From assembly GCA_963969395.1 (NCBI GenBank), contig OZ017801.1, positions 4,590,501 through 4,654,500 of the forward strand: a stretch of DNA of 64,000 nt. The letters are read 5' to 3'. Source of the DNA: Pseudoscleropodium purum. Lineage: Eukaryota > Streptophyta > Bryopsida > Hypnales > Brachytheciaceae. This document shows, piece by piece, positions 3,263 to 64,000 of this stretch (positions are counted from its first letter, which is position 1; every line of letters starts with the position of its first letter). The position numbers and the translations under genes are program-made. Under the pieces are notes generated by a model. That model was not told the DNA's origin. It saw only the letters and a program-made list of their open reading frames with translations, and searched no databases.

Positions 3263-4140
3263 CCCTAAAGTCCCATTGTCCCTCAGGAGACAAATTTGAT
3301 TTTGGACAAGTCCTTGTAACCTCAATTTTTTATAAAACTTATTGAAAGTTTCTCATAATATAAAAAAATTGATTAGTTGTGTAGGAATATAATTTTTGTT
3401 TCAATTGGTGACCAGGAGTAAAAGTTATACAACAAAAAGCCTAGAACAACATTTGGTAGGGAGGAAAAAAATCTACAAAAATTCAAAATATATATATTTT
3501 TTTTCCTAAAATATTATATTTTTATCTACGTGTGAAGCTTTTATTCATTCTATTTGGACTAATAATGAGAAGTTAAGGACAATCTTGTTTTATTGGGCAA
3601 TCTAAGCATTTACTTGAAAAAATAGTTTGTAGGATTTATTTCTGAATGCAATTTTCACAATTGTTTAAACAATCTCACCATTGGAATTATTGTCTTTTAA
3701 TCCCAACTTGGAGCTATTAATGATTTAGTTGTTTTTTCATTCTTGGACCTACTTCTCCTTAACAATTTTTTAAAGAATGAAAATCAAGTGTGTGTTTTTT
3801 GAATTTTTTTCTTAGACTTTCAATAGAATTCTTCAACATGATTTTTTTTTAATTCAAAGTCTATATTGTAAAAAAATTCTACAAATGGCAATCAAAGTCC
3901 TTTGAAATTGCAAATCAATGTTCAAAAAAACTTTCTTTTTCAACTTTGAATGCTAATATCTTCCAATCTATACGGTCAAACTTCATGAAGTTTTTATCAC
4001 ACGAGCTAAGACAAGTAAAATACAAGCTATTGTGGTTAGATTCTAGAAAAATGGCTTGTTTTTGTTTTTTTGGATGAATGCAGCAAAAAAGGCAATTTTG
4101 AGTGATTTTTGATAGAATAATGGCCTTGGAACTTTAGGGG
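3263..4140. mobile_element. TTAA-ended element, 878 bases
   Basis: Flanked by TTAA at 3259-3262 and 4141-4144. The left terminus reads CCCTAAAG and the right reads CTTTAGGGG. Internally, AATGCTAATATCTTCCAATCTA matches the copy at 32112-33066, where the same place reads AATGCTAATATCTTGCAATCTA. It lies in the same orientation as that copy. No transposase frame. Confidence 0.7.
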
Positions 4141-4144
4141 TTAA

Positions 4145-6759
4145 GATCACCTCATGTATCAAAATATCTACCCCAAAGTTATCATTATGAAAAGGAATTT
4201 ACTTTGTTCATGAGATTAGTATAAGCTAAAAGCCTATTAAAATGAAGACCCATATTTAATTGCTATTTAAAAAATGAGTGAGGCCAATAATATATACATC
4301 TTTTAAGACTAAATTTTATAAATTAGCTATTATTATCATTATTTATAAAGTATTGAATATTATCTACAAATGCTAGATTGTGGAAGGTGTCTATGCGTCT
4401 TGATAATTTGTATTTGAATGTAAAAGGACATGTGTGTAAAGGGATGACAACAAAAGGAGGGGTAGGTGTAAGGTAAGGACTTGGTAGTTTTTGAACCTTG
4501 TAAATTTTCATCATTGATATAAAATTTTAATTGAACTTGAGAAAAAATGACTACATAAAACCATATGCTTTTCTATACTTATTCATATCCTTGTATGATT
4601 TTTCAAATTATAGATTCATTTTGGTGCAACCATAGCACTTTCTCTATTGACATTTCAAACATTTGTCCCTAAATTAAAGTTACAGTGGATGAAAAAAATG
4701 GGGAAATGCAAAAGAAGGAAGATGGCATTTGCTAGGCATTGAAATTAGAAAATGTATTTTTCAATAAGTGAAGTAAGAATGATGTTTGATATTTATAATA
4801 CTCATGCCAAAGTTGATTATAAAAATTTAAGTTCTCAATGCTAACAAAAATACCAACAAAAATGCCAACAAAAACACCAATAAAATGTGCAATCATTTAA
4901 TTAGAATGGTATGTCTTTTCTTGGATGAATGTAGTCACTTTTGGTTGAAGGGATAAATTTCCATCTATTCTTTAGATGATTGTAGGAAACTGTGAACGCT
5001 TATTTACTCACCTTTGATAAATTCACGAATACAACCAAGTTCTTAATTCTTTAGCTAATTTTGTCCTATAGGGTGCCTAATGTTGGTCCATTGTGCCTTT
5101 TAAGCAATGAATCTTTTTTCAACTCCTACTTATGCTGAATCTTGAAATTAACTAATAAGACCAAGCTTCAAAAGAAATTGCTCTACTAAGTCTAATGGCT
5201 ATGCTACTATTATTTTGAATGGAAGGAGAGATGTTTTAAATTTAGACACTTAAGGTTAAAGATCAACTCTTGCCATCCCTAAAAATATAAAGTATATTTT
5301 CATCCAACTTTCCTAGCCAAAGTTATGGACGGATGAAGTTTAGCCTTAAAAAGACTATCTAAACTTCATCCTTTAAATTGATCTTGTTCCTTAATTCCAA
5401 TTCCTTTGAAATTTGACCTCTAGACCAACCTACATGACTTCTACTTTCTTTCCAAATTTGGCCTTAGATGGATTTTTTTTCTACTCTATTTCATCCAATT
5501 TCCACCCTAAATTTCATCTGGCTCTATCTTCTTCATTTTGTGTTTTATTTTTAAATGTAATTCACTTGTAGAATCTCCTTGATTAACTCTAAGTGTTCAT
5601 AGTCTTAAATTTGTTATCTAAACTATCTTCTAAATCTTTAATGGAAGTTCCTTTAATATTTAAGTCTCAGACCAACTTCTGTCAGCTTACTAATTTTAGA
5701 ATTTGATTATTTTTCCTTGTAGATAATAATTTTAGCTTTCTAGATTGATAAGACACTTTCTAATTGGACTCTCCTACTAAAAGTTATTAGTGGATGAAGT
5801 TTGTTCATTATTTGGTGTGTAAAACTTCATTCGTCGATTATTTCCATCCCACGTTTTGAAATTGACTTTTAATTTCACTCATGAATTCTATATTTTTACC
5901 AATTTTTTTAGTTTCCATTCTTGTTCCATTTGGATGAGTTTGTTTAATTTTCATCCAATATGACTCCTAACTTCATTTGCTAATATCTTTTTCAATATAA
6001 CTTGAAATTCTAAGTGTAATATAGTTTTGAAAACACCTAAACAAGACCTATGCAATTATTTACCCGAATTTTGGAAAAACTCAATCTTGAGACCCTGACT
6101 TGCCCTTGAAGTTTGGCTATGTGTAGAAATAGCCAATCTTAGAATTCAAATAACAATTGGAGTAATTAGTGTCTTACCCCAAAATTTGCTTCTTTTACAA
6201 GGTGTTTGAATACTTCATCAAGCTCTTTGTTGTTGGTTATGGTGGAGTTTGTCTTGGATTTTTACTGGCAACTTGAAATAGAGTAAAAATTATAAATTCA
6301 AAGTGTTCAAAAGGCTACCTCATCTTTCCCTTCTCTTTCTTTCCCTTGAATACTATTTAAACTCCATTATTGTAGTGTCAAAGGATTGACTTCAACTACA
6401 AAATAATTGCCACAGCTTTCTAAATAATAATTGACTCTTCTTATCTTACAATCAATTATTATCTTATTTAAGTTTAAATGGTTCTAAATGAATTTCAAGG
6501 ATTTCTCAATTTCTCTTCACTTATCAATTGGACTCTTCATCTTCTTCTCTTACAATTTGAATTTGACACTTCTATCTCTTGGGTTTGAAGAGTTGAAAAT
6601 TATGAGAATTATGAGAAGGTGCTAAATTTCTATTCTATTCTTCTTCTAATTCTTAGTTTTTAGTCACTGAAGGATTTTGTAAACTTTAATCTTACTTCCT
6701 CCTTTCTAATTCTATACCACTTTATATCTACTCCTATCCTAATAATTTTTTTTCACGTT
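4145..6759. other. Intergenic DNA with one dispersed repeat
   Basis: No gene found. It holds the repeat copy at 4590-5010. From 5300 to 6000 the short word GGATGAAGTTT and its complement recur several times on both strands without forming a clean tandem array. The 4323-4514 minus open frame has no recognisable features. Confidence 0.5.
4590..5010 (+). repeat. Dispersed repeat, copy 1 of 3
   Basis: Shares an ordered series of blocks with 43430-43800 and 44190-44560: a G/T-rich GATT block, a block with ACTTTCTCTATTGA followed by ATTTCAAACATTT, then a GTGGATGAAAAAAATGGGG-type block and GGATGAATGTAG. Internal similarity is moderate. No terminal repeats could be defined, so its class is unknown. 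Confidence 0.5.
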
Positions 6760-6777
6760 TTGCTTTCAAAAGGAAAT

Positions 6778-6965: not shown

Positions 6966-7014
6966 TATTGTTTTATTTTTTATTTTTAAAAAGTTAAGCC
7001 ACATCAAGCATTAA

Positions 7015-19777: not shown

Positions 19778-19972
19778 CACTATAAGAAATCTGTATTTTA
19801 GGTAACGGATTTTAGGTGACATTGAATTTAACAGCCTTTGTTTTCATATCAACAATAACTTCCACCATAAATTTTGAACGTCATAGCAGACATTATTGTT
19901 GACATAAAAACAAAGATTGTTACATTCCATGTCACTTAAAATCAATCACCTAAACAAGAATTTTTTCTAGTG
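19778..19972. mobile_element. CACTA-like foldback miniature element, copy 1
   Basis: Starts CACTATAAGAAA and ends TTTTTTCTAGTG, the CACTA-superfamily terminal signature. Most of the 195 bases fold back on themselves: GATTTTAGGTGACATTG near the left pairs with a CATGTCACTTAAAATC block near the right, and further in CAACAATAA pairs with TTATTGTTG. No 3-base target duplication is conserved. A close relative lies at 21044-21228. Confidence 0.7.
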
Positions 19973-21043
19973 TCAAGTATAATACAACTCCCATAGCAAG
20001 CACCAAAGCTTGAAGTTAGGGCTTTCTTTTCACCCACCTCTTCTCACATAGACTTCTAAAACTCTAACTCATTCTCAAAGATAAGTTAAAAATCTACAAA
20101 ACAAAAAAGTCAAACACCTCACTTTGTCGCTTGCAACTCCAATGCCGCCGCCGAGATGTAGCTCTTCATTCCATCAATGAGATGCAATTCTTCACTCCGT
20201 TACAAGCACAATGACTAGTTCACTTTTTTTTTAATGTGTAGAAAGGAATGTATAGGGAGGAAGGACAAAATCTCACTACAAAAGCACTGCATACTATGAA
20301 AAATCCTGAATTAGACAGAACATAACAAACAACTATTGGTCCAAGATGTACAAACTATATGCACAATACAAACAAATACAATAGGCAAACCCTAAAATGA
20401 AAAATCAGATTCAAATTGGAAATTGGAGAAGAGATCTCTGATAGAGAAATTAGAAGCCAAAACATCATTTTTTTTAAAATTCAATTTTGGGCCATCTTAT
20501 CCATAATGCTTTCTATTAGACAATCCACAAAAAATTTAAACAATTTAAGGTCAAAATTTGGCCTTCATTTGGAAATCAATCATTTGCTAGGATATTTTTT
20601 TGCCACAAATCACATAAAATAGCTAAATACACCAAACTGAAGATGGCGGTGAAAACTAGAAGGACAAAAAGGGTGCCTATCTTAGACCATGCAATCAACT
20701 TAATGGACTCTTCTTTAGTGGTCTTGAGCTTGAAATATTAAAAGTTTGGTCCTACTAAGTTAAATTCATGTGCTATCCTTCCTAGGTCTTAAATAGCATT
20801 CAACATAATGAGATTTTTTTCACACACAAATGAAATGACCTCTTCAAGAACTACACAACTACTAAATGAAACGTACCACAAAAGTTTGCCCATATGCAAC
20901 CACCTCAACTTTCAAATATTTCAGCATTCAAAACTCTTTTACAAAACTAAAACCATGATGACAAAGGTAGATATTACCATCAACAAATTAAAAACTAAAC
21001 TTTCTAACACTGCAAAATATAATTGTAGGCCAACTGTGAAGAC
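19973..21043. other. Intergenic DNA between two related foldback elements
   Basis: No gene. The open frames at 20416-20622 and 20808-21071 have no recognisable features. The second overlaps the left end of the next foldback element. Confidence 0.5.
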
Positions 21044-21228
21044 CACTAAAAGAAATTCATCCCTTAGGTGATGGATTTTAGGTGACATTGATGTACAATC
21101 TTTGTTTTTATGTCAATAATAATGTCCGACATAACTTTTTGATGTTATGACAGACGTTATTATTGTTATAGGTTGTTACATTCAATGTCACCTAAAATCC
21201 ATCACCTAAATACAGATTTCTTATAGTA
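21044..21228. mobile_element. CACTA-like foldback miniature element, copy 2
   Basis: Begins CACTAAAAGAAATTC and ends TTTCTTATAGTA (one terminal base changed from TAGTG). Its arms are cleaner than copy 1: GGTGATGGATTTTAGGTGAC at 21067-21086 is exactly complementary to GTCACCTAAAATCCATCACC at 21187-21206. Same family as 19778-19972. Confidence 0.75.
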
Positions 21229-24066: not shown

Positions 24067-24970
24067 CCCCTCAAGGCCTAACAATGTTTTCACAATGGAG
24101 GTTTTTAATGAATTGGCCCACTTTAATATTCTTTTGCACATGGATGTGTTTGAAATTCTTAATTTTAATTGTACAAAAGTGAAGGATACTTTGTCTAGTA
24201 CACATGGAATTAATTGCAGAAAATATTGTCTGTTGGATTTTTAGATTGTAACAATTTTGGATGATCAACTCTTTAGGCAAAAAACGCAAGTTTTGGAGAA
24301 GAAAAATTATAAGAAGATGAAAAATGATTTTTTGCCCTCCCAAAAAATTGTTTTAGAATCTAAAGCAAATGAAGTATTTTTTTTATTGAAAAAATTGAAA
24401 AATAAAAAACTTTCCCGAATTGTAGGAATTCTCAAACTAAAAGAATAGAAAGCTAAAACTAACCAAATTGGATCCTAAAAAATTTTAAAAAATTTATGTA
24501 TGCATTATTTTTTTTAATTTAACAATTTATATTATTAGCATATTTTTCGGAACACCTTCAAATTTTTTGGAATCATTTTAATTATTTTTGTATTTTTAAT
24601 CACTCTAGATTGAATTTTGTATTTTTAAAATTGCTAAAAATACAAATTTGAATTTTTTCTCCAAACCTAATTTGTTTGTATGAAGTAAAAACTAGAAATG
24701 TCGAAGGAAATAATTTTTTCCATCCCTACTATTTCTTTTATTGTAAATATATTATATTTGCTCCTTTTTTCTATTAGACGACATTTCCTAAATAAATTTT
24801 TAAATATTTCCTACATTGAAAATTTGAAAATCAGAGAATGCAACAAGTATGTGAACTTGTTACTCTATAAGTCTCAAGTTTACAAAATATTAAAATTTGT
24901 TTCACCCTACTAGGAATTTACTATTGAAAATTTGAAGAGGGCACATTGTGTTCCCTTAGTCCTTGAGGGG
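24067..24970. mobile_element. TTAA-ended element, 904 bases, diverged subfamily
   Basis: Flanked by TTAA at 24063-24066 and 24971-24974. The termini CCCCTCAAGGCCTAA and its complement TTAGTCCTTGAGGGG match at 14 of 15 positions, the best-kept inverted repeat of the family here. ATGTTTTCAC near the left end is shared with the copy at 59465, but the middle is strongly diverged. It encodes no transposase; the longest frames are about 90 Lys/Phe/Ile-rich codons. Confidence 0.75.
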
Positions 24971-25915: not shown

Positions 25916-26332
25916 TGTCACGACTACGTTGCTCCAAGTTGGACAAGGTTCCATGATGGACGGGGAGCGGTTACTCCTAATGGGAGAGGAAGCGGTTATT
26001 CCTAGTTGGTTAACGAAGCATGAATAAAAGCTCGGTGAAGGAGCAATGTCCCTCACTTGACATACGTTAATATAAGAACTATTTCAAATGAAGAGTCCTT
26101 GGTACCAATGCTTCTTTGAATTGATTCTATGGTTGGTTCTTGATTGGCATGTGTGTTCTTGTGTTCTTTACGTATCATGATTGGTCATATGCATATTACT
26201 ATTGTTTCATAGATTGAATTTTGTTGAGGAAGATATGGGTTTGGGATAGTTGCATTAGAGAGTAGAAACCGGATTGGAAATTCACTGGGAAGCATTAGTA
26301 GGATGCCCGCTTTGGGTTTTTCAGTCTTAACA
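25916..26332 (+). repeat. 5' LTR
   Basis: 417 bases, TGTCAC to TTAACA. Pairs with 31305-31720. AATATAAG near 26070 is a TATA-like candidate for the element's promoter. Minus-strand open frames here and in the 3' LTR are the same antisense by-product. Confidence 0.95.
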
Positions 26333-26459
26333 TTATGTCAAGTCCTGACTGCCCCTGCTTCTATGGTGGAGGGTATCCTATTGAACATGATTGGCAATTG
26401 GGAGTCAATCGATCCATGGAAGTGGTTGAATTTTGTTGAGAGAATTATTTTGCTTTAAT

Positions 26460-27580: not shown

Positions 27581-27599
27581 GCTTTGGCAATCATAGCAG

Positions 27600-27915
27600 T
27601 CCACCAAAGTTGTGTCACCACATTACTTGCATGCCACTACAAAGCCAAGAGCACATCTGACTATGGATGTTCTTATCAACTCAATTGCAACAACTTTAAT
27701 TGATTTGGGTGCTACCGACATCTTTATGCATCAAGATTTTGCTCAACATTGCAGAGAAAAAATACAATCTAAATTAATTCCACAAAAAGTTTGAGTTATA
27801 GATGGGAGAGTAATTAACTCTAGACTTATTACCCATGAAGCAACATTTGAATTGGAAGTGGAAAATCACCAAGAAATGATTGTGGTGGATCTCACAAACA
27901 CTGGCTGATATCATT
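27600..27915 (+). pseudogene. Retrotransposon aspartic protease, degenerate
   Basis: LIDLGATDIFMHQDFA corresponds to the retroviral-type protease active site, usually D-S/T-GAT. Here the serine or threonine is leucine, which should abolish catalysis, and a stop follows at 27793. Downstream ILETPWLICHDPTIRW fits the conserved stretch before reverse transcriptase. Confidence 0.75.
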
Positions 27916-29775: not shown

Positions 29776-29929
29776 ACTAATGCTAAAATTATTCAACACA
29801 TAAAAATAGCCATGGGAGAGGATATCTCACTTAAGCCAATATTGCCATTCTTTATGAATAATCTTGATCGGGCTCTAGTGATTATTTGTCGGCGATTTCA
29901 AGATTACAAGATTTGTAACAGGATACTTT

Positions 29930-42469: not shown

Positions 42470-42610
42470 TGCACTTCCTAGGAACTCACAGCCCTCTTGG
42501 GGGTGAAAATTTTTTCTAATGTCCTTGGGCACATATGTGAAATTTTCAACAAAAAAAAACTCCATTCATAGTGAGCTTCCCAAAATTGCTATGATTTTGA
42601 CCTTGAGGGG
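42470..42610. mobile_element. Right end of a TTAA-ended element
   Basis: Ends CCTTGAGGGG followed by TTAA (42611-42614). Immediately inside, CATAGTGAGCTTCCC then AAAATTGCTATG match the right parts of 36770-37707 and 59465-60377. The left limit is not found; it may begin near 41810 (TAAACCCTAATG). Confidence 0.6.
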
Positions 42611-45149: not shown

Positions 45150-45622
45150 GTTACTAAAATTTTGGGATTGTCATTTTTGAATTCCATATTTTTATTCTTA
45201 ATAATTTAGTATTTTGAATCATTGTCTACTACTACCTACTTACTATTTTTTTCCTATATGTTGTACAATTCCAAATGATCTGAAATTTTTCAAGCATGTG
45301 AAAAACTTATCTAGGAAAAAGAATACAAAGAAGCACCATCATTTTGGTCATTTTTTCATAGAAAAGTGAGCTTGTGAAGTGCAGCTGCCCGGCTCTTTGC
45401 AGGGCAAAAAAAATGATTTTAGTGAATTTGAATGCTTATATCTTGCAATCCACATAGTGGAAATGTTTGAAATTTTTACCACATGTTATTGATACTACAT
45501 AGTAAAAGATCCTACAATTACATATGTCAGAAAAAGTTTTTTTTCAAAAAATTTGCCACTTGTACTAAAAATGGCAATTTTCGAGCTTTTTTGGTGAAGA
45601 CATAGTCATAGAACTTTAGGGG
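45150..45622. mobile_element. Left-truncated TTAA-ended element
   Basis: Ends ACTTTAGGGG and TTAA at 45623-45626. The reverse complement carries the family's shared blocks (GCCATTTTTAGTACAAGT, GACATATGTAATTGTAGGAT, AGATATAAGCATTC, TTGAAAAATTTCAGATCATT). Same orientation as 32112-33066. No left terminus is found. Confidence 0.7.
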
Positions 45623-46634: not shown

Positions 46635-47892
46635 CCCGTAAAGGATGGAGGCTTATTTTGGAAAGAAATTGTCAAAAACTAGTAGTATTTAGGGCAACAA
46701 TTTTAAATTTCTTTTTTTTTTCTTCAAAATTCAACCATACAAATTTGTATGAGACTTATTCAGGAAAGTGTCGAAAATTTTTTAGAAACTTTGACTGCAC
46801 AAATCATTAGAAGATTTTGGGAGGCTTTGGAAGCCTACAAGTTATCTGTTGTGGGAACTCGACTGTGCAGTGACAATGAAGTGGTTTGATATGGGCAACA
46901 CCTTGCCACATCATTGTCCAAAGGGTTTTTTTTCAACTTTTTTTTTCATCTAAAGAATTTAAATTTTTTTAAAATTTTTTTTTTTTTTTCTAACAACGGG
47001 CCATTCCCTTCACTTCGGGGAACATGCCTAAAACAGACTTTCGGAGCCCCCCCAAATCTTCTAATGTGAAAGATTATAACATTTGAAGTTAGTAGAGTTT
47101 TTTTTTACCTTGCTCAACAAGGCTAGTGGGCTTTAACTCCTCCTAAAGTGAGAATTTTACACTATACATGGTTATTTTTTTGACATTTGCATCTAATATC
47201 ATATAAGTTATAGTACTCACTATCCACTCAAAAATAACTTACATTTTTGGATTTTAAAGATTTTAAAATTTTCATTTGCAACCCCCTTCTCCTCCCCCCT
47301 CTTTTAATTTTCAAAAACCAACATAGTGACAATCAATATCATGGGATAATTCTTCCCTCATATGTATCTAGTACTATATTTGTATCTTGTACCTATATTC
47401 AATATTCATCTTGTATTTGGTACTATGTATGTATCCGATATTTATTTCATATTTCATATTTGGACAGCTTAGATTAAATCTCACAAGATCAACGGCTTGT
47501 GATTTTTTGAGAAATCAATGGCAATTTCGAAGATAAGCATTTTTTGAAAAATGCTTAGCTTGTAAATTTTTTGAGAAGGGGGGACAACTAATGCAAACTA
47601 GGAGGAGAGCCATCTTTTGAGAGGATAGTTACATACTTGCCAAATTTCAAAATAATTTGAGGACTTTTGCACATGTTGCGTGAAGCTTCTTGAGTTGCTT
47701 CCAAGCTTTAGGGCAACATAATTTTTCATCCGGGCACTAGATTGGAAAAAAAAATCATACTTCCACTAAATGGGTACATATTTGCACCTTTGTGTCAAAA
47801 ACTTAAGATTGACATCCATTAAAAAATAACTTCATACACACCTATCTAATATTGCTTGCGTATGTTCAACGGTCATTTGGATCCTTTCAAGG
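46635..47892. mobile_element. TTAA-ended element enlarged by an internal insertion
   Basis: The left end is clear: TTAA at 46631-46634 then CCCGTAAAGG. CTTTAACTCCTCCTAAAGTGAG, TTACACTATACATGG and CCACTAAATGGGTACA match the middle of 59465-60377. About 350 bases between 47220 and 47570 have no counterpart there, so this copy seems to carry a second insertion. The right end is degraded (CCTTTCAAGGTTAA near 47884-47897). Confidence 0.55.
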
Positions 47893-49053: not shown

Positions 49054-49704
49054 TCCCTAAATGCCCAAGGTTTTTTTTAGCTTCTTAGAAGTTGTTCCAA
49101 ATTGAACAAAAAGTCAACATTTTGATAAGTATTATCAATTTTTTTGAATGGTAACCATACTAATTCAAACTAGACATGTTAGACATTACATAGGAAAAGG
49201 AACACAACAATATCACTTATGGATTGAAAGATTATAATTGTGCTTGATCATAAGGGTGTTAAAACTAAGAAAATGATTTGAAGTCTTTTAATCTTTTTTT
49301 CACATGTCAAATCTAAAAATTTGGTCATAAAAAAAAATGAGGTTAAAGAGAAAAACATGCACAACTCTAATTAATTTACAGCTTTCCAAAATCTACCCTA
49401 ATTTTTTAAAAATAAATTTCTAATGTGATTTTTTTCACTAATATCTAGTGTATTGAAACTCATTTTCAATAGCTCTCAACACTAATAATCAAGATTTGCA
49501 ATGGACACCCTTGCACAAAATCTTCAATAGAAAAATCATAATCATTCATTTTCAAAATTAGATATGTGAGGCTAAAACTAGACTTCAAAGATAATTTTTC
49601 AAAAATATGAACTATAAAAAATAGTAACTTATTTAGGTTTTACTCTGTATTTAACTTCAAAGTATTGTGGACACTTGAAATTTGGTGTAGTAGGCATTTA
49701 GGGG
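49054..49704. mobile_element. TTAA-ended element, short subfamily
   Basis: Left end TTAA at 49050-49053 then TCCCTAAATG. Right end CATTTAGGGG then TGAA, a mutated TTAA. Its right 220 bases match window bases 1-237. At 651 bases it is shorter than the others and shares little interior with them. Confidence 0.6.
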
Positions 49705-51510: not shown

Positions 51511-54500
51511 GTAAGAAGCCGCATAAGAAGAGATTGACAAAACTAGTCCCTGTTTTCGTTCACTAACCTCATACATTGTGTAAGTGGATTTTTTTTGAAA
51601 CTAGAGGCCCAATCGTTAGCCCTTGTACATCTGTTTACAAGTTGTAAGATTGAAAAAGGATGTGTACATCACGTTGATCGTTGTCAGCTGTATTGCTTCT
51701 GGTGGACTTGCGCTTGTTTGTCTCAGACTTAAAATCACTTACCGTGTTTACTAATTAGGATTTTATGGCTCCAAAATGAATTCCTGAAACAGAATTGGAA
51801 GCATATTGCGATGGTTCGTGGTGGGATGTTACGATTTTGAAGAGGAATCGTGATAAATACTACGTTCATTATCAAAGGTTTACCGATCAAAGCGACCAGT
51901 GGGTACCTTTAAATCATCTCCGGATACGCTGTAGGACCTCAAATTTAAGTGACTGCCATAAGATTCTTCCTGGGATCGATGTGTGCGTGATGACTCGGCA
52001 CCCGCATTCAGACGACAAGCCTCCAGTACGACTCACCCCACCCCTTGTCCTTCATCTTTCTTCCTATTGTCATCCTGCCAGTGAACTTATCGACGCTCCT
52101 ATTCTAAATTCATTGAGTGCATAGCTGTGTGGAAGAGTCAATATCAATAGTCTTTGTCGTAAAACATGTAATTCAGTGTTAATATTTTTTTTCCCGTTCT
52201 TTGACCTGAGAATTGTGGGTTTGTCTTCTTATATCGGGTGATAATGGTTGGGGAAATTAGGCATGGTACGATGCACAAATAATCGACCATGAGAGAGGGA
52301 CACACACTCCAAAAGCGTGCAAGTGCTGGTTCCGGATAGCTCTCTACACTATTCCAGATGCCCTTCCATCAAATGCCAGTCGAAGAGGGCGTTTGCCAAT
52401 CTCCGCCAATATTGTGGCTCTGAGAAAAATGAGTATTATGAGAGAAGCACGAGACATGTCATTTCAACAAGTTGTAGCCGCCTCTTTACCTGGCGTGACC
52501 AATCCTCCGAGGATTTGGGGGAAAGATGGATCGCGTTGGTATTCCTCTTTAGATCCCACCAGCATATCCCGGGACCCCAGCTTCTCCTTTGAGAGCAGAG
52601 TAGCTGGAGGAAGCTTGGACCGTTCACTTTCTGAGGGCCATCGTGGGGAAGATATGAGCCCAGAATTGAGATCATTTGACACTTTCCTGGAGGAGGAAGG
52701 ATTTGAGGATCCGTCGAGTTTAAGTCCTGATGTGAGGGATGAAGATGTTGATATTCCTGTTGTTTCTCGTTTCCAGCAACCCATTGTTAGTAACGCGGAT
52801 GATGTTGCACTTTGTGAGAACGATCAAATGCCTGATGACGATATCAGGCATCTAGACAGATACTCCAGCGATGAAAGCGAGGAAAGGACAATAAGGCCCG
52901 AGAGGGCAGATGTTATTTGGGTTAACCCGAATCCAACGTCGAGGTCGGAGAGTTTAGAAAATCCTGAAGAAGCTCTGGATGAAGCTCTGGATGAAGTGGT
53001 TGTCTCCGATCTTCATTCATTGAAACCAACTGACCGATGCCCATTGGAGCCAATTTCTGTGACGCCAGATATAGTATCTCCCTCACCTTCTGTTCAGACT
53101 ATCCCTTCAGTTCCAGTGACTGTTCGGATCGTTGAACTAGCTGCGTCTTCTGAGGATTCGGACGTGGACTTTGCCGAACATCTAGAACAAAGCATTGATG
53201 TCCTAGTGACTGCTCCGACTGACGAGCCAGCTACATTGTCTCAGAATTCAGATGGAGATGAGTTCGCGGCTTACCTTAAACAAAGTATTGCTAAAAGTTA
53301 TTGTGCCAAGCCATTAATCGCCAAAAACCACGTTGCGAAACGAAGTCTTACTGAAATGCGTGGTGCCAAACGAAGGACTGCTAAAAATCTTGGTGGGAAA
53401 CGACGTCGATTAAGTCCATTTTCTTTTCCAGATATCCTCGGTAAAGGAAGTTCGAAAACGAAACCTTTTCCTCGGCAACGCACAGAACAGCCTCGCCTGA
53501 AGAAGGCTGTGAAGGAGAAAGCAAAAATCTATCCATTCGAAAATCTGAAAACAGTTCGAGCGACTCTTGCCGGTAATCCTGTCAAAGGCGGCAAAAATCT
53601 TGGTAGAATTGCCAAGGCTAAGTCGGAGGAATTTGCTGGTGAATTGGAGGAGCTGCTCATAGATGAGAGGCCCGATGTGTCTGTGCAGGAAAAACTAGCA
53701 CACTCAAAGGAAACATCCAAGACTGGGCTTCCTCCACAGGTCAAAAAGTCAAAGAAAGTGGTGAAAGAGATAGCTGCTGTCCCAAAATTTGTTGAGAAAG
53801 AGATCACCTACGCTGAATTATTCGAAACCGTGGAAGCGGTCCAACTGGACATCCCGTCCGAGGAGCAAGGGTTCGCAGAGGAGTCAGGCTTGTTGCCGTC
53901 ATGGAATCCCTTCATGGAATCAGTGAATCCAGCACTTCCTGAGGAGGTGAAAGATGACCCACTTGCTGATATTTGGGAGGTCATGCGTGTTGCACAGGAA
54001 AATGAAAAAGAGGTGAGTAATAAGGTGTATAATTTTCCATAGATCACTGTCCGGTTTGAAAATCCTGGTTTTTTGTTTGCTGCATTTTGTTAGTTGTTAC
54101 CTTCAATGGTATAACTCGATTATGGACATGATTAGTGTATTGATTGCCTTGCTAGTACGAATTTGATGAATAGAACTTATGGCATTCTGACGTTGACTTG
54201 TTTCTCTGAATAAGGTCGATGAATGGGTGAAGGAAATAGAAATAGAGTGTACCGGCTTAGTTGGTACATGTGAACATCCCGATGGAAGTCAACATCCGAA
54301 GCATGGCGCTCTCAAATTTGATCAAGAAGTTGGTGAAGTCTGTGAAGTGTGTGGTGTCATTGTGAATGATATAAAGGATATTTGGGCGCGTGATGTAAGA
54401 TCATCTTGCTCTTCCGGCATGCTTGATTGTGGTTGAACTTTTTGATTCAATCTCATTGATGTTTACAGGAAGGTAAAGAGAGGCGCATTGGTACATGCCA

Positions 54501-57500
54501 CATGCTGTCCAGGGGATATTTGCTGTCGCTCTGGTGTGCCCAATGCTCGAGTTTTAATGTGGCTCCGGGCACGTTTCTCTAGCAAATGATGTTTGTTACA
54601 TGGGATCCTCTTTTGAACGTGGTGCTCACATCTGAATCACAATTCATATGAAGGATTTCACTCTCTTTTGTCTCCTTACTATGTGGTGTGGGGCTTCAGA
54701 ATGCCAAAAGGACCGCAGTAACGAAGGAAGGCAATGACAGCGATGGTTGTGATCAAGATGTACTTGCCTTCTGGGATCCAGATGATGAAAATCACATACA
54801 GCAGAAAGATATCGAAGGAGGCTCAAATTTTGATCTCATTCCTGATCTTGTCACGGAAATGAAAGCACATCAGAAACAAGGATTCCAATTCTTATGGCGT
54901 AACTTGGATGGGCTAGGTTCTAATGGAAATACTTGTTTTGAGAAAGGAGGATGTGTTCTTTCTCACGCTCCCGGCACAGGAAAGACTTTTCTCATCATCA
55001 GTTTTCTATGCAGCTACATGAAGGTCAGATTCTAATCCTTTCTCTTGGTCCAATATTAGGGACATGTTTCTTTGAAGGGCATGCGAAGTACCCAACCATA
55101 CAACTGTCAATCTTGCGAAGTGAGAATAGTTTGAACCATGCTAGTGCTCCTTGAGCTTTCTTTTTCGACTCTACAGTATGGGTTCCTATATATCTGTGCC
55201 AAAGATCTTATCTTAGTGATTTTGCTGACGGAACCTATAAATTCAGAGAGAAATTTCTTGTCTTTTTAGCCTGTGTTCACTCACTTCCATTGTTCTCTTT
55301 CTGTTGCATTCAACTTAGTTTCTCCTCTTCAATGTTGTATTGAAGCTGATGTCTAAGACATTCTGTCAGATCTCTGATCGTTGGGTAGTTTTTCACCGCA
55401 AAAACCTCCTTACAATACGCCGTCTTTTTTCATTTCACGCTATTTGTCTGCGGTAAATTGAGTTTTTGTTATCTCTAACCATAGGGAGAGATATAGCAAT
55501 GTGCAATGGTTCAAAAGTTATGTAGGCAAATGAAAGTGAAACACGTATTAAACTCAATAGTGGCATGTTGGGCCCATCATTCTTAAGAATTCATTTCTTA
55601 TGCATAGTAAATCGAATTGTGTCATGTGGATACTTAGGAGTAGTAGCATTCTACAATTGTCACATGGTTATTTTATATAATAATCAAATAGAGGAGTGTA
55701 CTAAAAATTGAAAAGAGACGTACAAAAGTAACACATTTATTTGAGTAGAGATACTTGCGATTTGCCGCATGTTTAACAAACGCGAACGTCCAGTTTCGAA
55801 ATTGTTCGTCTATACTTTCTGAGCGGACTATGGTTCTAAGAGCATGCCTGGACTTGTCTCCGTTCGGTGTTTGTGTTGCTACGAGAGCTGATGATGCGTG
55901 GTTACTGTTTTCTGCTTTCAGAAGTATCCTAATACTCGACCGATTATTCTTGCACCAAAAATTATGCTACAACCGTGGGCGAAGGAATTTTTGAAATGGA
56001 ATGTGAATATTCCCGTTTACAACTTCAATCAAGCAGGTGAACAAGGACGATTACTTCACCAAAAGCACGTGGATGCTGGAATTGTTCGATTAAATCACAG
56101 CGGAAAACCACAAGGGAAGAAGCTGCTCGTCGGCCGCGAGGTATTTAAGTACTTAACGTTGCTTATTGCTTTACTAATGTGTTGCAGTTGTCCAGCACTA
56201 GCATGACTCAGTGCTCTGTTTATTTAACTCTTCTTTTATTGTGAAATATATGGCAGGCCATGATGTTGGAATGGATCCGAACACAAAGTGTGCTGATCAT
56301 CAGTTACCCGATGTTTAACAACCTATACAAAACATCTCCTTCAGATACCAGGATGTTTACTATAAGGAAGTTACTCTTAGAGAGTCCTACCATCATGATA
56401 CTTGATGAAGGGCATATTGTTCGAAACAAGAAAGCTCAAGTTCTGAAGCAACTGAATGCTGTCAAGACTCCATTGCGAGTAATGTTGTCAGGTTCGACAC
56501 AAAATCTTCTTGTTCTTTTTCTGAAGAGAGAATTTGAACTGTGCAAGGAGGTTTCTCCTATGAACTTCTGTATTTTGCGTAGTAACGGGAAGTTTTGTTG
56601 TGATTGTAATAAGTGCTTCCAGCTCATAGAGGACTGAACTTCCTTCTGATCAGGAAATGAGAACTTACTTCAGTCTTTAAGAATTATGTACAACTTGGCA
56701 ACGATATCTTTAATGAAGATGATCGACTGTACCAGAAAGGCATAACCAGTCACAACCAAGTTACTTTTGTATATGAAGCACCATTTTACTCACAATATTT
56801 CGGACATATCAAATGTACTCTTCATCCTAGATTTATCAATTTGTATTTATCTTGTCAACAACTTCGAGGGTCTTGGGCTGCTTTTCGTAGGAAAAGACCG
56901 TCATGGGAAAATGCAGGGTTTGCAAATTATTAAGAATTGAAAAGAGTTTTCACCGAGGAGAGGAAATACTCCCTAAGCAGAAGACATCGATACATGTCGA
57001 ATAGAAGTAAATTCCTCGGCAGAGAGAGAGAGCTTGATGCTCCTCACACGATTTTTCAATGTAACTGTTTCTCGTATATCTAAGTCCTTTGTTCTGACAG
57101 TGCACTTACTGTGTCAGGTACTCTATTTCAAAACAACTTCGAGGAGCTCTATACGTGTCTCAATGTTGTGCGCCCTGGATTTGTAAAAACATTTGCTGAG
57201 GCTGCTGGTTTAAATTTCAACATCCAGAAGGTACTATTCTTGGTTTCCTGAGGGTTTCAGATCGTTTATTATTATGTGTGTCACTTAATATTCAGGTTTC
57301 GGTGCAACCTCACATCCTTGAAGCACAGTTTCTCCATTTAGCTTTCGTTTTAGAGGTTACTGGTCAAGGAAGCGACAGGCAGTTGCATTTATTCATCGAT
57401 AAAGAAGCAAAAATTGTTGTGGCTGAGCTGTTTTGTGATACCGTATACACTTCATTCGAAGTACAATGACGTGAAGGGCTATAATTATCGTTTGCAGGAA

Positions 57501-59185
57501 CTTGAATCTCAGAGTGACGTCGAGAGTGAGCAGTTGGCAACCGAACGTAAGGAAAAAGCTTATAAACTTACAGAATCACAAGCAAGGCGATTATTCATAG
57601 AGGAGATTGGCAACAAGATTGACAAGGGACAAAAGACCAAGTCTTCTTCAGAGTCATTGGCTGAGGGTCTTGCACAGCTAAGCCGATTGACTAGTCTCTT
57701 TATACATCATTACACAGGAGGTGTTTTGAAGAAAAATCTTCTTCCTCTGCGAGACTTTGCCATAATGTTCCAACCTACAGACTTACAAGAAAGAATGATT
57801 CAGAACTTATCAATGAGAATGGGAGAGAAGACCATGCTGGAAAGAGAGTGTTTATTGTCATTGGTTTGCATCCATCCTACACTTTTCTCGCAGCATAATG
57901 TTGGGAAAACTCACACTGACCTACTATCACCGGAGGTATCGTTATCTCCGAATTCTAAGATCTCTTCATATGGTTTGCATTCTGTAGTAATAATGAGCGT
58001 ATATTCTACTGAAACAGATCGATAGAATGACCAGTGCGTTCGCCTCGTTTGTTGGGATGCTGTCTCTTGACTGGCATTATTTCTCTATCAATTAAACTTC
58101 GGTCATGTAATTACATGGGTGGAAAACATCTTTCGTGCAGGAGATGATTCAAGTGGCCTCTAATCGAGACCCAGCCGTAGGAGTGAAGACACGATTCGTG
58201 ATAAATCTACTCAAGCACTTACGACTTGGACAGGAGAAAATTCTCATTTTTTGTCAGAATTTAGATCCTCTTCTACTTCTGGAAGAGATGCTAGGGAAAC
58301 AATTTGACTGGATTCGGGAACGAGAAATTTTGCAAATTGACGGAAAGGTCCAACCGGACGAGAGGCAAAGTATTATCGAACGATTCAACGATAAAAACAA
58401 CAGGGTCCGGGTCTTGCTGGCATCAACAAAAGCTTGCGGGGAGGGTGTCACTCTTACTGGAGCTTCTCGTGTTGTCTTTATGGACGTTCTTTGGAATCCT
58501 GCCGTAATACGACAGGCCATTCATCGTGCATACCGCATTGGACAGGAGAAAGTTGTGCATGTGTACAGACTGGTATTTTCAGGTATTTCTTTCAAGAATT
58601 CTCTTGGTCTAAGCATTCAGTAAGATAAGGATTATCACTAAGCACCCGAGTTGAATTGAATGTACAGTAAAAAATAGTTCACTTTATCGTAGACCTACTA
58701 GTTTGACTGAAACTGAAGTCGATTTCAAGTGATTCATTTGGTTTTAATCTCCATAGGCGTCTTCTAATTTATCAGTTTGATTGCCAGGAACGTTTGAAGA
58801 AGGCAAGTACCGACGGATGGTCTGGAAGGACCACAAATCCCAAGCTATTTTCTTTGAGAGTCAAGAGGATGTGGAGAAGAACAATAGCGCCCAACCAGGT
58901 TTCTGGGAGATTCCGAAACAATGTAGCAAGGACCCCGTACTGAACGAGCTTTGTCGACAAGATTCTGAATTAAACCAACCCGCTTTCAAACATATTTTCA
59001 GGCATGGTGGTCTTTTTGATGACGACTATGAGGGTGATTCGGAGGGCAAGGGCACAGATGCAATAGACTGGCTGCGAGGCATCGAGGGTGTTGAATCTTT
59101 TGATTTAGAGACTGATGATAGTAGTGGTGAGTCTGGTGACGATGGCGACACTGAAGACTTCGATGGCTTTGACGACGATGTATAG
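51237..59185 (+). CDS. CLSY: CLASSY-type (CLSY1/2-like) SNF2 chromatin remodeller, eleven exons
   Basis: CLSY proteins are plant-only nuclear SNF2 ATPases that bring RNA polymerase IV to chromatin for 24-nucleotide siRNA production and DNA methylation. Exons: 51237-51510, 51793-52025, 52261-54012, 54215-54394, 54700-55023, 55922-56140, 56257-56491, 57118-57230, 57498-57935, 58141-58582, 58788-59185; all GT-AG, phases agree, 1535 residues (Arabidopsis CLSY1 about 1256). The N-terminal LRIRCRTSNLSDC and PGIDVCVMTR follow CLSY1. Helicase motifs: GTGKT (905-909), ILAPK, LDEGH (1043-1047), SGTLFQNN, ILIFCQN, CGEGVTLTGASRV, QAIHRAYRIGQ (1381-1391). DEGH instead of DEAH is normal for the CLSY/DRD1/ATRX group. 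Unusual: a 91-residue basic N-terminal extension, a 584-codon third exon, and a very acidic C-terminus. The gene looks functional. Confidence 0.93.
51793..52025 (+). CDS. CLSY: CLSY exon 2: conserved N-terminal domain
   Basis: Acceptor GAAACAG. Encodes ELEAYCDGSWWDVTILKRN, YYVHYQRF, LRIRCRTSNLSDCHK and PGIDVCVMTR, aligning with the start of CLSY1 (EVFCWGTWKAVEYLR and QRLRIRSRK). Donor CCA|GTACGA, phase 0. Confidence 0.85.
52261..54012 (+). CDS. CLSY: CLSY exon 3: 584-codon linker
   Basis: The first codons (AWYDAQIIDHERGTH) complete the N-terminal domain. The rest is acidic and serine-rich and likely disordered. It holds a 31-residue tandem duplication (about residues 458-519, ending in HLEQSI and YLKQSI), EEALDEALDE, and a basic tract (GAKRRTAKNLGGKRRRLSP) that should act as a nuclear localisation signal. 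It ends ENEKE at a strong GTGAGT donor. Confidence 0.88.
54215..54394 (+). CDS. CLSY: CLSY exon 4: cysteine-rich domain
   Basis: 60 codons. CEHP is followed after about 23 residues by GEVCEVCGVI, the C-H-C-C zinc-type pattern that precedes the ATPase in CLSY and DRD1 proteins. Acceptor GAATAAG; donor GAT|GTAAGA. Confidence 0.85.
54700..55023 (+). CDS. CLSY: CLSY exon 5: start of ATPase, Walker A
   Basis: DLIPDLVTEMKAHQKQGFQF corresponds to the conserved Q-motif-like entry, then HAPGTGKTFLIISFLCSY is Walker A. A small extra exon between exons 4 and 5 (after TTTACAG at 54469) cannot be excluded, but direct joining keeps phase and fits CLSY1. Confidence 0.88.
55922..56140 (+). CDS. CLSY: CLSY exon 6: motif Ia
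   Basis: KYPNTRPIILAPKIMLQPWA then KEFLKWNVNIPVYNF, matching CLSY1 RPLVLAPKTTLYTWYKEF. Follows the longest CLSY intron (898 bases, 55024-55921). Confidence 0.9.
56257..56491 (+). CDS. CLSY: CLSY exon 7: motif II DEGH
   Basis: SVLIISYPMF, then LLLESPTIMILDEGHIVRNK with the Mg-ATP binding DEGH, and LRVMLSG up to a phase-1 donor (TCAG|GTTCGA). Reading through this donor would lose the conserved GTLFQNN that starts exon 8. Confidence 0.9.
57118..57230 (+). CDS. CLSY: CLSY exon 8: motif III
   Basis: GTLFQNNFEELYTCLNVVRP, the canonical SNF2 motif III followed by helical residues. The preceding intron is 626 bases. After the AAG|GTACTA donor, a phase-0 cassette of 20 codons (57296-57355) is possible but absent from CLSY1. 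Confidence 0.88.
57498..57935 (+). CDS. CLSY: CLSY exon 9: linker between ATPase lobes
   Basis: 146 codons: charged helix (ATERKEKAYKLTESQARRLF), ITSxFIHHY-like block (LTSLFIHHYTGGVLKKNLLP), and LLSLVCIHPTLFS, which matches CLSY1 LLITLAAIHPWLV. Confidence 0.9.
58141..58582 (+). CDS. CLSY: CLSY exon 10: helicase C-terminal lobe
   Basis: KILIFCQNLDPL (motif IV), VRVLLASTKACGEGVTLTGA (V), VLWNPAVIRQAIHRAYRIGQ (VI, with both arginine-finger residues). Donor TCAG|GTATTT in phase 1 joins to GA in exon 11 to rebuild SGTFEEGKYRR. Confidence 0.92.
58788..59185 (+). CDS. CLSY: CLSY exon 11: C-terminus
   Basis: TFEEGKYRRMVWKDHKSQAI matches CLSY1 TLEEDKYRRTTWKEW. The last ~55 residues are dominated by Asp, Glu, Gly and Ser (for example ESGDDGDTEDFDGFDDDV), ending at TAG. 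Confidence 0.9.
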
Positions 59186-59464: not shown

Positions 59465-60377
59465 CCCCTGAAGGTTTTTTATGATGTTTTCACCAGAAGT
59501 GCTCCAAAACTGCCATTTCTAGTACAAGTATAATTTTAGAAAAAAAATACATTTTTGGACACATGTAACCATAGGATCTTGAGTGTGTTGGTTTGAGAAG
59601 ATGTGGTAAAAATTTCAGAAATTTCCATTGCATAGATTGCAAGATATTAATGTTTTGAATTGACAAAAATCCTTTTTTTTTGGCCGTCTGAGAAACCAAG
59701 TAGGTGCACTTCACAAAATTTACATTTAAGGGCTAGCAGCCTTTAACTCCTTTTGGAATGAGATTTTTACACTATACATGGAATTTTTTTAAATTTGCAT
59801 CTTGTATCATGTAAGTTATGTACTTGCCAAATTTCAAAAGTGAAAGTTTTTCAAAGCTGCCTTAGCTATCAAAAAAGTTTGAGACACTATGACTTTTGAT
59901 CTAAGCACCTAGTTAGGAAAAAAATATATATCCACTAAATAAATACACCTTCACATCTTGTATCAAAATTTTGTGAACATGTGCCTAAAATTGACTTCAT
60001 AGGAATCTACCGAGCTTTTCAATTGTTTGTTCCATGAACAATTATCCTTTAGGGATTAATCAAAATGAAATGATTCAAAGCTTTTTACATATATATTCAT
60101 GTAGAAAAACAATTTCAAAATTTTTATCCTTAAAAAAGTGATTTAAAAAGATTTATTTTGGTGTTGCCTAGCTTGTCTGTTGAGTAATGAAAATTAGATA
60201 TCATACAATAACAATTTAACCATCTAATCAAAAGTTATGAAAGTTGTTGGGCCTTAGAGCTACTCTTTGGGCACATGCTGTGTCAAATTTTTTTTTTAAA
60301 AGAATCAATATTCTGTTTGTAGTAAGTTGCCTAAAATTGCTATGTTGCCATGAAATGACAATTTGGTGCTTTAGGGG
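59465..60377. mobile_element. TTAA-ended element, 913 bases, just 3' of CLSY
   Basis: TTAA at 59461-59464 and 60378-60381. Termini CCCCTGAAGG and GCTTTAGGGG. It begins 280 bases after the CLSY stop, so it may lie within or just past the transcript end. Shares all internal blocks with 36770-37707. Its right end and right flank are duplicated at 61953 onward. Confidence 0.88.
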
Positions 60378-61889
60378 TTAAAGAAACTATAGTGAAAAAA
60401 AATTGCCAAAATCCTAAAATTGATTTTGACTTGTGGTAAGCTAGTATTAGTTTGTGACCTATTATACTATAAGTGTATGAAAATACTCAATACAAATTGA
60501 TTGTATAATATACCACTAGAAAGTCATTATTAAGAACACTAGTATGTCAATTACCAAATTGGTCTAGAACTTATTACAAGGAATTTTATTAAATTATTAA
60601 TGGCAATTGATTCAAATATCAATATGTTTTAGTTGAAATTCTATCAACAACAAAACAAACCTATTATTTTGTTTGTTGCTCACACTATGCACTGAAAAGA
60701 GGCTACACACTTATGTTCCTCCATTATCTCCCTCCCTAGGCTTGAAAATGTGGCTTCCCCGCCCCCCCCCCCTTACCAATGATCTTGACTATAAATATGG
60801 TACAAATATAGGTACAGATACGTTATGGATACAAATACAAATATAGGATACAAGATACATATATAGGATATATCCCATATCAATTGCTAGTCCCACTCAA
60901 ATTGGAAATTACAAAGGTGTAGGAAGGTAAATTTTAAAAAGAAATTGTTTGAATGAAATGGAAGAAGAGAGGGGGTTAATTGAAAGTTAAATGAAAATGG
61001 ATTTGAGTGCATAAAAATTTGTCACTATGCACTCAAAAAAGGTAATTACTGATTGCCTATTTAATTTTTCCAAGTTGTGAAGACAACATTTATCATTTCC
61101 AAGTTGATGATCATACAATTTCATATATATATATATTATTATTATCACTACCACTATAAATTTGGAATAAAAATTCAACTCCTGTAATAGTACTTTGTAA
61201 TTTATTATTTCCTTGTAAATAATTAAGCTCTCAAATTGTATTCATACATGATTAGATATCTACCTAGAAATGATCAAGACTGTCTTCTTAGCTTTCCCAA
61301 GTTGAAAAGACATACTTGATTGGACCTTTACCAAATTTGTCATGAATAGGAGTAAGGTTTGATGGTGCTAAAATAAAGAAACAAATGGGTTTCTAAAGCA
61401 CTTCTACATATGTTTTGAACTTAAAATGTGGAAGCTGTATGTCCAATCAAGTATATATACAATTTGAGAGTTTAATTGCATACAAGGATATGATAGATTA
61501 TAGAGTACTATAGAGGGGTTGAACTTTTATTGCAAATTTATAGTAATAGTGATAATAATAATAAATATCAATTATAATAAATCCCCTCCAATCCATAATA
61601 GATAACAAATTTAGGTGGAAAATATCCTAATTTAGATAATTGAAGCAAAGAATATGATGGTTGCATGAAAAGTTCTCTTTGTAGCTTTACACAATGGAGG
61701 GCAAGGTTTCAATCAAATAGTGCTATGTATTTACCACCAATATTATATATTTCAATTACTTTATTAGAATATGTAGTTAATCAATTTTTTGAAGTGAAAT
61801 ATGAAAATAAATTGATAAATGTGACCAGAAAAATTCCAATTAAGGTGGAATTTCAAAAATCTTGATGGAAATAAACAAGTGATTGTGTG
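60303..61889 (+). repeat. Segmental duplication, unit 1
   Basis: 60303-60670 matches 61953-62310 (for example TTGACTTGTGGTAAGCTAG and GTGACCTATTATACTA). 61050-61889 matches 62380-62539 and then 63462 to the window end. 60680-61040 is extra to unit 1; it holds a C run, GATACAAATA-type repeats and a CACTATGCACT word at both edges (60691, 61023). Unit 1 includes the right end of the TTAA-ended element, so duplication followed that insertion. Confidence 0.8.
61223..61226. other. Empty TTAA insertion site
   Basis: Unit 1 reads CCTTGTAAATAATTAAGCTC with a single TTAA. The same place in unit 2 reads GTAATTAA, element, TTAAACTC. This shows that TTAA was the target and was duplicated. Confidence 0.85.
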
Positions 61890-61952
61890 TTTATTAAGTG
61901 AAAAATGTATATAATATTACATCAGTTATTATATATATATTATAATGTTAAA

Positions 61953-64000
61953 ATTTTCCGTTTGTAGTGAGCTACCCAAAATCGCTATGTTGCCAAAAAA
62001 AACACTCAATTTGGTGCTTTAGGAGTTAAAGAAACTATAATGAAAAAAATTGCCAAAATCCTAAAATTGATTTGACTTGTGGTAAGCTAGTATTAGTTTG
62101 TGACCTATTATACTACAAGTGTATGAAAGTACTCAATACAAATTGATTGTATAATATACCATTAGAAAGTCATTGTTAAGAACATTAGTATGTCAATTAC
62201 CAAATTGGTCTAAAACTTACTGCGAGGAATTTTATTAAAGGATTAATGGCAACTAATTCAAATATCAATACGTTTTAGCTAAAATTCTAACAACAATAAA
62301 ATAAACCTATTATTTTACTTGGTTCTCCCTAGTTACATGGAAGTGATTAAAGAAACTTTGGATTGTTGATATGGTAAGATACTTTTCTAAGTTGAGAAGA
62401 CAACAATTATCATTTCCAAATTAATGATCATACAATTTCATGCATATATTGTTATTATCACTATTGCTATAAATTTGGAATAATAGTTCAGCGTGTTTAG
62501 TAGTACTTTGTAATTTATTATTTCCTTGTAAGTAATTAACCCCTATAGTTCCTTGACTCTGTTTTTGCCAAAAACACTCCAAAACTGCCATTTCTTGGAC
62601 AAGTTTCAAAATTTAGAAAAAAAACATTTTTGGGCACAAGTAACCGTAGGATCTACTAGTGAACTGGTTTGAAAAGATGAAAAAAAAATTTCAGAAATTT
62701 CCACCGAGTAGATTGCAAGATATTTGCATTTGAAGTGATAAAAATCATTTTTTTGTCCCTACAAAAAACCGGGCAGTTGAACTTCACAAGGTCAAATTTG
62801 TACGAAAAAATGTTCAAAATGATTGAAACTCTTTGAATTCAATCTTCAAGGCATGTTGGATGCATACTTGAAAAATTTCAAATTATTTAGAATTGTACAA
62901 CATATAGGAAAAAAATAGTAAGTAGGTAGTAGTAGAGAATGATTCAAAATACTAAATTATTAAGAATTTAAATATGGAATTGAAAAATGTCAATCCCAAT
63001 GGTTGAAATGTTGTAATGAGAAATTTACATCCTAGGATTTTTTTTTTTCAAAAATATTGAAAATTGGATAAGATAAAGGATTTCAAAATTTATTTTTGAA
63101 TAGGAAATCCATAACTACCTGCAAACAAAAAATCCTCATAACTTTTGACTTGTTGACCAAAATTGAATGATTGAAAGATTTCCTTGTATATATAAGTCTA
63201 GAAAACAAATTTCAAATTTTGGTGGTTGAAAAAAATGCTTTTTTAGATCTGCCTGGATTGTCCGAGTTGAGAAACAAACTATATATTAGGCTATAACTTT
63301 TGAATCTAATTTCCAAATGTCATGAAATTTGTTGCATATGAAAGATATTCCTTGTCTACACCTTCTCTTACAACTTCAGCCTTAAATATTCAAATTTATG
63401 GTCACAATGGCCAACCCAAAATTTCTATACAGCCAAAAAACGCAGTCCGGTCCTTTAGGGGTTAAACTCTCAAATTGTATTCATATTTGATTAGACGTCT
63501 ATCTAGAAATGCTATCAAGACTGTCTTCTCAGCTTTTCCAAGTTGAGAAGACATACATGATTGAACTTTTACCAAATTTGTCATAAATAGGAGTAAGGTT
63601 TGATGGTGCTGGTTAAACAAACAAATGGGTTTCTAAAAGCACTTCTACATGTATTTTGAACTTAAAATGTAGAACTTGTACATCCAACTAGATATGTATA
63701 TAATTGGAAAGTTTCATTGTATACAAAGAAATGATAGATTATAGATAGCTATTAGAGGGGTTGAACTTTTATTCCAAATTTATAGTGATAGTGATAGTGA
63801 TAATAATAAATATCAATTTTAATAAATCCTCTCCAAACTATAATAGACAATAAATTCAAGTGGGAAATATACTAATTTAGAAAACTAAAGCAAAGAATAT
63901 GATGGTTGTATGAAAAATGCTCCTTGTAGCTTGATACAATGGATAGCAAGATTTCAATCAAATAGTGCTATATATTTACCACCAATATTGAATATTTCAT
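61953..64000 (+). repeat. Segmental duplication, unit 2 (runs off the window)
   Basis: Starts with the copied tail of the TTAA-ended element (GTAGTGAGCTACCC to GGAG at 62025, TTAA at 62026-62029) and then follows unit 1 with about one difference per 10 to 15 bases. It is interrupted at 62540-63461 by a later insertion. Confidence 0.8.
62540..63461. mobile_element. TTAA-ended element, 922 bases, with matching empty site
   Basis: TTAA at 62536-62539 and 63462-63465. Termini CCCCTATAGTT and GTCCTTTAGGGG. Internal blocks as in 36770-37707. It is absent from the paralogous position 61223-61226, so its exact limits are defined by comparison. No transposase frame. Confidence 0.92.

Follow-up and report, generated by a model that had tools for sequence, protein, structure and literature searches.

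Here, we describe a group of transposable elements in a 64,000-nt stretch of the genome of the land plant Pseudoscleropodium purum (assembly GCA_963969395.1, contig OZ017801.1, positions 4,590,501–4,654,500 of the forward strand; hereafter, the window). These elements very probably represent several old, non-coding families that were moved by transposases of the piggyBac superfamily, and the best explanation of the families themselves is that they are cut-and-paste DNA transposons, mostly 0.84–0.96 kb in length, with the common end 5'-TTAA-CCCCTAAAGG. This common end would be bound by a transposase supplied from elsewhere, which would cut the element out and join it to a TTAA, with duplication of the TTAA; the enzyme would most likely belong to the piggyBac superfamily, of which the genome retains more than 100 mostly broken copies. 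We infer the cutting and joining steps, as well as the identification of these transposases, and not another enzyme, as those that moved the elements; the proposed link between enzyme and ends rests on the target, the end sequence and the co-occurrence of both in the genome. An earlier reading, made from the letters of the window (the sequence-only reading), had proposed one family of non-autonomous elements inserted at TTAA, whereas the present analysis delineates several families that have an end of 10–14 nt in common.

Several element families with a common end

The largest group, family A, is defined by ordered internal blocks and comprises, in the window, the complete but divergent element 3263–4140 (minus strand; TTAA on both sides, left end one C short), the complete A1 elements 32112–33066 (minus) and 36770–37707 (plus), both with TTAA on both sides, the left half 45150–45622 (minus; TTAA outside its end), the complete element 59465–60377 (plus; TTAA on both sides), the middle of which is replaced, and the complete A1 element 62540–63461 (plus). 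Family A fragments are found at 42501–42610 (plus; a right end with TTAA outside, its shared-block part being 42521–42608), at 2083–2153 (minus; internal) and at 61951–62025 (plus; shared-block part 61951–62023), the last being the right end of the 59465–60377 element copied by a block duplication and not an independent insertion. A short end at 800–832 (minus; TTAA outside) resembles the family A left end by eye, and the family A profile gives no match there. A second family is represented by the complete 651-bp element 49054–49704 (plus; TTAA on the left, TGAA on the right) and by a right part at 1–237 (plus; TTAA outside) that is cut by the window edge. The third family consists of 46635–47892 (plus), which is interrupted by an unrelated, high-copy repeat of ~420 bp (47213–47632, borders approximate), and a 339-bp right part at 59717–60055 (plus) that borders a TTAA and lies inside 59465–60377. 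The complete 904-bp element 24067–24970 (plus) matches no other part of the window. Three TTAA ends, at 832, 60055 and 62025, come in addition to those listed in the sequence-only reading, which had described ordered internal blocks throughout; such blocks are shared within family A but not by 24067–24970, 46635–47892, 49054–49704 or 1–237.

The elements at 24 kb and 49 kb resemble neither each other nor either of the consensus sequences A1 and A2, and the element at 46 kb resembles the A2 consensus over 47 bp only; A1 and A2 themselves can be aligned only in two internal blocks, at 67–73% identity. As judged by sequence comparison, the common property of the window elements is therefore the end and the target, and not the interior, because the interiors of the families show little or no similarity. 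Additional copies were taken from 46 loci fetched by the end motif, two overlapping loci being dropped. Among the 31 full-length copies in the window and these loci, 22 belong to A1 and 8 to A2, and 59465–60377 belongs to neither. TTAA ends with at most two mismatches numbered 113 in the same material, and 28 of these lie in neither A1 nor A2; they include second-family copies in loci L011 and L042, and the others suggest further families.

The 24-kb element has its own family in the genome: among 589 candidates, 40 matches were scored, 39 of them besides the element itself and 83–91% identical to it. Of these 40, 38 begin at most 6 bases from one end and stop at most 2 bases from the other, and this near-full-length agreement is therefore an independent confirmation of the ends. 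The families are similar in length (A1, 925 bp; A2, 923 bp; the 24-kb family, 904 bp; the second family, 644–651 bp; the third-family element, by inference, ~840 bp without its insert), which possibly reflects an optimum for the transposition complex, the sole explanation that we offer. When the third-family element was searched against the genome, all 41 non-self matches were confined to the inner ~420-bp repeat. This repeat yields 3,041 first-look candidates genome-wide; by eye, its ends read approximately ATCC[AT]CTCAAAA with a possible target duplication of ~9 bp, so that it is perhaps Mutator-like.

The end motif and the TTAA target

Searching the window for TTAACCCCTAAAGG with at most three mismatches gave 25 matches against 6.93 expected, a number reached by none of 100 shuffled sequences, and the decamer CCCCTAAAGG with at most one mismatch, TTAA not being required, was found 15 times against 2.12 expected. 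An exact TTAA precedes 13 of these 15 decamers (binomial p ~8e-26, given that TTAA makes up 0.82% of window tetramers); the other two are preceded by TTCA, at the right end of 49054–49704, and by TCAG, at the unpaired match at 10294. With two mismatches allowed, TTAA stands before 19 of 53 window decamers. The association is weaker in a sample of 200 kb taken evenly from contig C1, in which TTAA precedes 11 of the 20 decamer matches with at most one mismatch.

Genome-wide counts were made over 313 Mb with the reversed motif as control. The exact 14-mer TTAA-CCCCTAAAGG occurs 4,237 times (control, 4) and the 19-mer TTAACCCCTAAAGGACCAA 1,292 times (control, 0), whereas [ACG]TAA precedes CCCCTAAAGG in only 203 copies. 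A plain TA target is therefore excluded and the target is TTAA, in agreement with the insertion preference proposed from the window; such a preference is best known for the piggyBac elements of animals. Ends placed by homology with the family A profile, for which TTAA was not part of the criterion, point the same way: in the fetched loci, after 31 exact-motif ends and two overlapping loci had been set aside, an exact TTAA lies outside 23 of 31 such ends, and in the 200-kb sample outside 17 of 25 (16 of 24, given that one site was read on both strands). Seven of the eight non-TTAA ends in this sample differ from TTAA by one base.

All eight complete elements of the window carry the motif or a variant of it at both ends, in inverted orientation, and all end where the sequence-only reading had placed them. 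The weakest end is the right end of 46635–47892 (CCTTGAAAGG), in which 3 of the 10 motif bases are changed. Most termini in the window, the fetched loci, the 200-kb sample and the consensus sequences are 5'-CC, and some are TC, AC or CA; the A2 consensus starts with CCC and has a perfect inverted repeat of 14 bp. A longer target duplication hidden outside the TTAA was looked for by eye at the flanks of the window elements, and none was seen. The end TTAACCCCTAAAGG, for example at 3259–3275, includes CCCTAAA, which we take to be the plant telomere unit; the coincidence is possibly due to chance.

Occupied and empty sites

A block at 60307–61754 is duplicated at 61952–63999, and the second copy holds the A1 element 62540–63461, whereas the first has a single TTAA at 61223–61226; 75 of the 84 surrounding bases are identical. 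It follows that either the insertion duplicated the TTAA or the element brought one with it, and that either the insertion postdates the block duplication or the first copy lost its element without trace. The empty site is clean, although it possibly was never filled. The third-family fragment within 59465–60377 likewise ends at a TTAA that is unoccupied in 32112–33066.

Coding capacity, age and abundance

Neither the A1 nor the A2 consensus contains an open stretch longer than 93 codons, and open stretches in single elements are no longer than in shuffled sequences except for one of 93 codons in 24067–24970, which was equaled by 1 of 100 shuffles and has no Pfam match above the cut-off. A Pfam scan of ten element stretches gave nothing above the cut-off, and Rfam and tRNA searches of the window gave no match. 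The proposal that the elements are non-autonomous thus holds for those examined and for the consensus sequences: they combine inverted ends, a target duplication, the lack of coding capacity and high copy number, the properties of non-autonomous terminal inverted repeat elements. At ~0.9 kb, they are long for miniature inverted-repeat transposable elements (MITEs) by the usual size rule.

Copies of A1 differ from their consensus by 13–21% (median 15.8, n = 22) and those of A2 by 7–12% (median 10.2, n = 8), and the elements are therefore old. Together, the A1 and A2 profiles cover 17,845 of the 200,000 bases of the C1 sample (8.9%) and 8.0% of the window; extrapolated to the genome, and if C1 is representative, they would amount to ~28 Mb of 313 Mb. 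The intervals given in the sequence-only reading total 8,270 bp, or 12.9% of the window, slightly less than the one seventh that it stated.

If these estimates are true, with ~9% of a chromosome sample derived from two families and more than 100 transposase relics, the piggyBac superfamily would be a major component of this genome, TTAACCCCTAAAGGACCAA could serve annotators as a diagnostic end, and the TTAA elements would offer a record of repeated activity. A bolder proposition, which we consider possible but rather doubtful, is that TTAA elements are a leading class of DNA transposons here, occupying at least one tenth of the genome over all families, through successive piggyBac lineages (or an undescribed TTAA superfamily) that kept the 10–14-nt end and the ~0.9-kb length while the interiors changed.

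Relics of piggyBac transposases

The genome was searched with the PF13843 (DDE_Tnp_1_7) profile, which we take to represent the piggyBac transposase domain. With 116 of 512 first-look candidates scored, at least 117 matches exceeded the cut-off (best E-value 2.2e-66), and many of them span nearly the whole domain. Stop codons are present in all but two of the matches listed, so that the superfamily once existed in this genome but, judged from the scored copies, is now mostly dead. The same profile gave no match in 14 control genomes; the plant families NAM and WRKY likewise gave 0 of 14, and these controls are therefore uninformative on plants. In locus L049, a Cys/His-rich tail, which has no significant Pfam match, resembles by eye the C-terminal Cys-rich domain of piggyBac. 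On contig C41 (18516768–18531333), two equally scoring piggyBac domain matches lie in opposite orientation, 13 kb apart, which suggests an inverted segmental duplication.

Two ends of the [ACG]TAA type lie near transposase copies on contig C40, one (C40:35194926) 1.4 kb past the C-terminal match and in the right orientation, the other (C40:36318188) 1.9 kb away and in the wrong orientation. Chance alone would place ~0.45 ends of this type within 3 kb of the 117 matches, and nothing was therefore concluded from either.

Longer copies were sought in five wide loci (L009, L010, L011, L019 and L027), in which the longest open stretch is 140 codons; none holds a longer copy with another recognizable transposase. 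In three of these, all on C1 (L009, L010 and L011), the widely spaced plus and minus ends come from separate family A copies or fragments. Thus, neither outcome that the sequence-only reading had named as contradicting it, flanks other than TTAA in many copies or longer copies encoding another superfamily, was encountered.

Assignment of the elements

Several observations weigh against the assignment to piggyBac. At its fourth position, the end usually carries C instead of the T that is general in piggyBac. No transposase gene was seen between TTAA-CCCCTAAAGG ends in the places read. The 3' flanks beside four of the 117 domain matches (751, 451, 471 and 451 bp, reaching ~290–760 bp past the domain in three cases and covering the first 746 bp in the fourth) contain no clear CCCCTAAAGG end: allowing up to 4 mismatches in 14 yielded just two matches, both in L050 and one of them correctly oriented, which is about the chance level (~1.3 expected over the four flanks). 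Three of these flanks are single-copy except for one 35-bp match, and in the fourth, of the 16 other matches, 14 do not reach the stop codon and the remaining two, both short, lie past it. On C1, exact 19-nt ends lie no closer than 10 kb to any of the 11 transposase matches below 25.46 Mb, and exact 14-nt ends no closer than 5 kb to any of the three below 8.42 Mb; these tests have low power for old copies. The unseen transposase postulated in the sequence-only reading has a counterpart in the genome, a piggyBac-type domain with at least 117 mostly broken copies, but one that was not seen between these ends; of its "piggyBac- or Sola3-like, in a plant," the land plant stands, and the likeness to piggyBac stands by features and co-occurrence, but not by a transposase seen between the ends.

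The lack of a transposase–end link in the places read would be expected if the elements belonged to an undescribed superfamily that inserts at TTAA and has CCCC ends, with the piggyBac relics as unrelated bystanders. We regard this as improbable, given that the test of the link was low-powered and that both ends and target fit piggyBac. Less probable still are Sola3-type elements, which would have the same anatomy and be mobilized by a Sola3 transposase. Sola3 uses TTAA and resembles the window elements in this target; however, the transposase complement present in the genome is that of piggyBac, and there is no direct evidence of Sola3, no search for Sola having been made. Sola3 is also named among the MITE superfamilies of insects in an excerpt from the literature.

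The target would suit Kolobok as well, a superfamily known for TTAA duplications and, according to an excerpt of PMC9587614, found in chlorophytes and rhodophytes, and the Kolobok T2-MITEs of Xenopus, as presented in part of PMC6004289, are likewise abundant non-autonomous copies with a TTAA target. Excerpts of both papers, however, give Kolobok termini as 5'-RR/YY-3', and the window elements, like the T2-MITEs in target but not in this respect, mostly start with 5'-CC; Kolobok membership is disfavored as the 5'-CC consensus termini break that rule, and an origin from Kolobok is exceedingly improbable. To Tc1/mariner-type elements, with TA duplications and ACCCC ends, we give next to no credence. 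The empty site taken by itself fits TA and TTAA alike, the empty sequence being the same in both models, but if TA were the target, the preceding base should vary, and 4,237 of the 4,440 exact ends (95.4%) have T there; the rarity of [ACG]TAA before CCCCTAAAGG rules this target out. Movement by piggyBac-superfamily transposases thus remains the reading that we prefer.

Comparison with known elements

Descriptions of piggyBac ends in excerpts of PMC2872659 (a CC[C/T]T motif and an inverted repeat of 12–19 bp) and PMC12732532 (varying ends in beetles: CCCT, CCCTTT, CCCATT and CACGTT) fit the CCC start and perfect 14-bp repeat of the A2 consensus, whereas the usual C at the fourth position of the end departs from the motif, from which the beetle ends vary too. 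The piggyBac/TTAA MITEs treated in parts of PMC2872659, such as the coral CMITEs, are alike in the duplicated TTAA, the CCC start, the short terminal inverted repeat and the non-coding interior, as well as in having several families per end type and a piggyBac transposase domain in the genome. In contrast, the coral CMITEs are ~0.1 kb long with T as the fourth base, whereas the elements here are mostly ~0.9 kb, have C and reside in a land plant; moreover, in this comparison, the window families are known from copies without a transposase alone.

The view that piggyBac is unusual in land plants, expressed in the sequence-only reading, does not agree with a survey of 257 species (PMC4438587), an excerpt of which reports PiggyBac in all groups studied, land plants included; its mere presence is therefore not new, and the notable part is its abundance. 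In the portion available, a repeat table of the fern Ceratopteris (PMC6890710) has 1,230 PiggyBac entries (122,417 bp, 0.00%), a plant review (PMC10794571) names PiggyBac among plant superfamilies with no example given, and PMC12732532 carries a remark on piggyBac in red algae. As far as these excerpts go, PMC4438587 and PMC6890710 are alike in classing land-plant repeats as PiggyBac, but they offer labels without an analysis of ends, target or copies, whereas here two families account for 8.9% of a 200-kb sample. The Sphagnum and Fontinalis genome papers do not mention piggyBac in their main text. A full-text literature search for the letters of the end returned papers of which those listed, judged by title, look unrelated, and no comparable land-plant case was found in the full-text literature searched, most subscription journals and Repbase being outside its scope, so that one may be recorded elsewhere.

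Neighboring sequence

The window also contains, at 51780–59185, an SNF2 chromatin gene that we name CLASSY-like from its predicted domains (SAWADEE and Agenet at 51780–52124, SNF2 at 56245–56637 and Helicase_C at 58111–58623); TTAA elements lie directly downstream of it, from 59461. A gypsy-like long terminal repeat element at 25916–31604 has two 300-nt direct repeats, 94% identical and 5.4 kb apart, that flank reverse transcriptase/RNase H stretches. A tandem array of diverged ~63-bp units (2293–3244) adjoins the element at 3263 and has inverted relatives at about 600–775. Repeats at 19778–21210 begin with CACTATAAGAAAT and CACTAAAAGAAAT, starts that we take to resemble the ends of CACTA transposons.

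In the genome, 29 NAM and 39 WRKY exon-level matches were found, corresponding, in our reading, to about 16 NAC and 20 WRKY genes. Both sets are several times larger in flowering plants, so that small sets such as these point to a non-seed plant, more likely a moss, a liverwort or a lycophyte. Four of the WRKY genes are clustered on one strand of contig C1, at 24.48–24.58 Mb.

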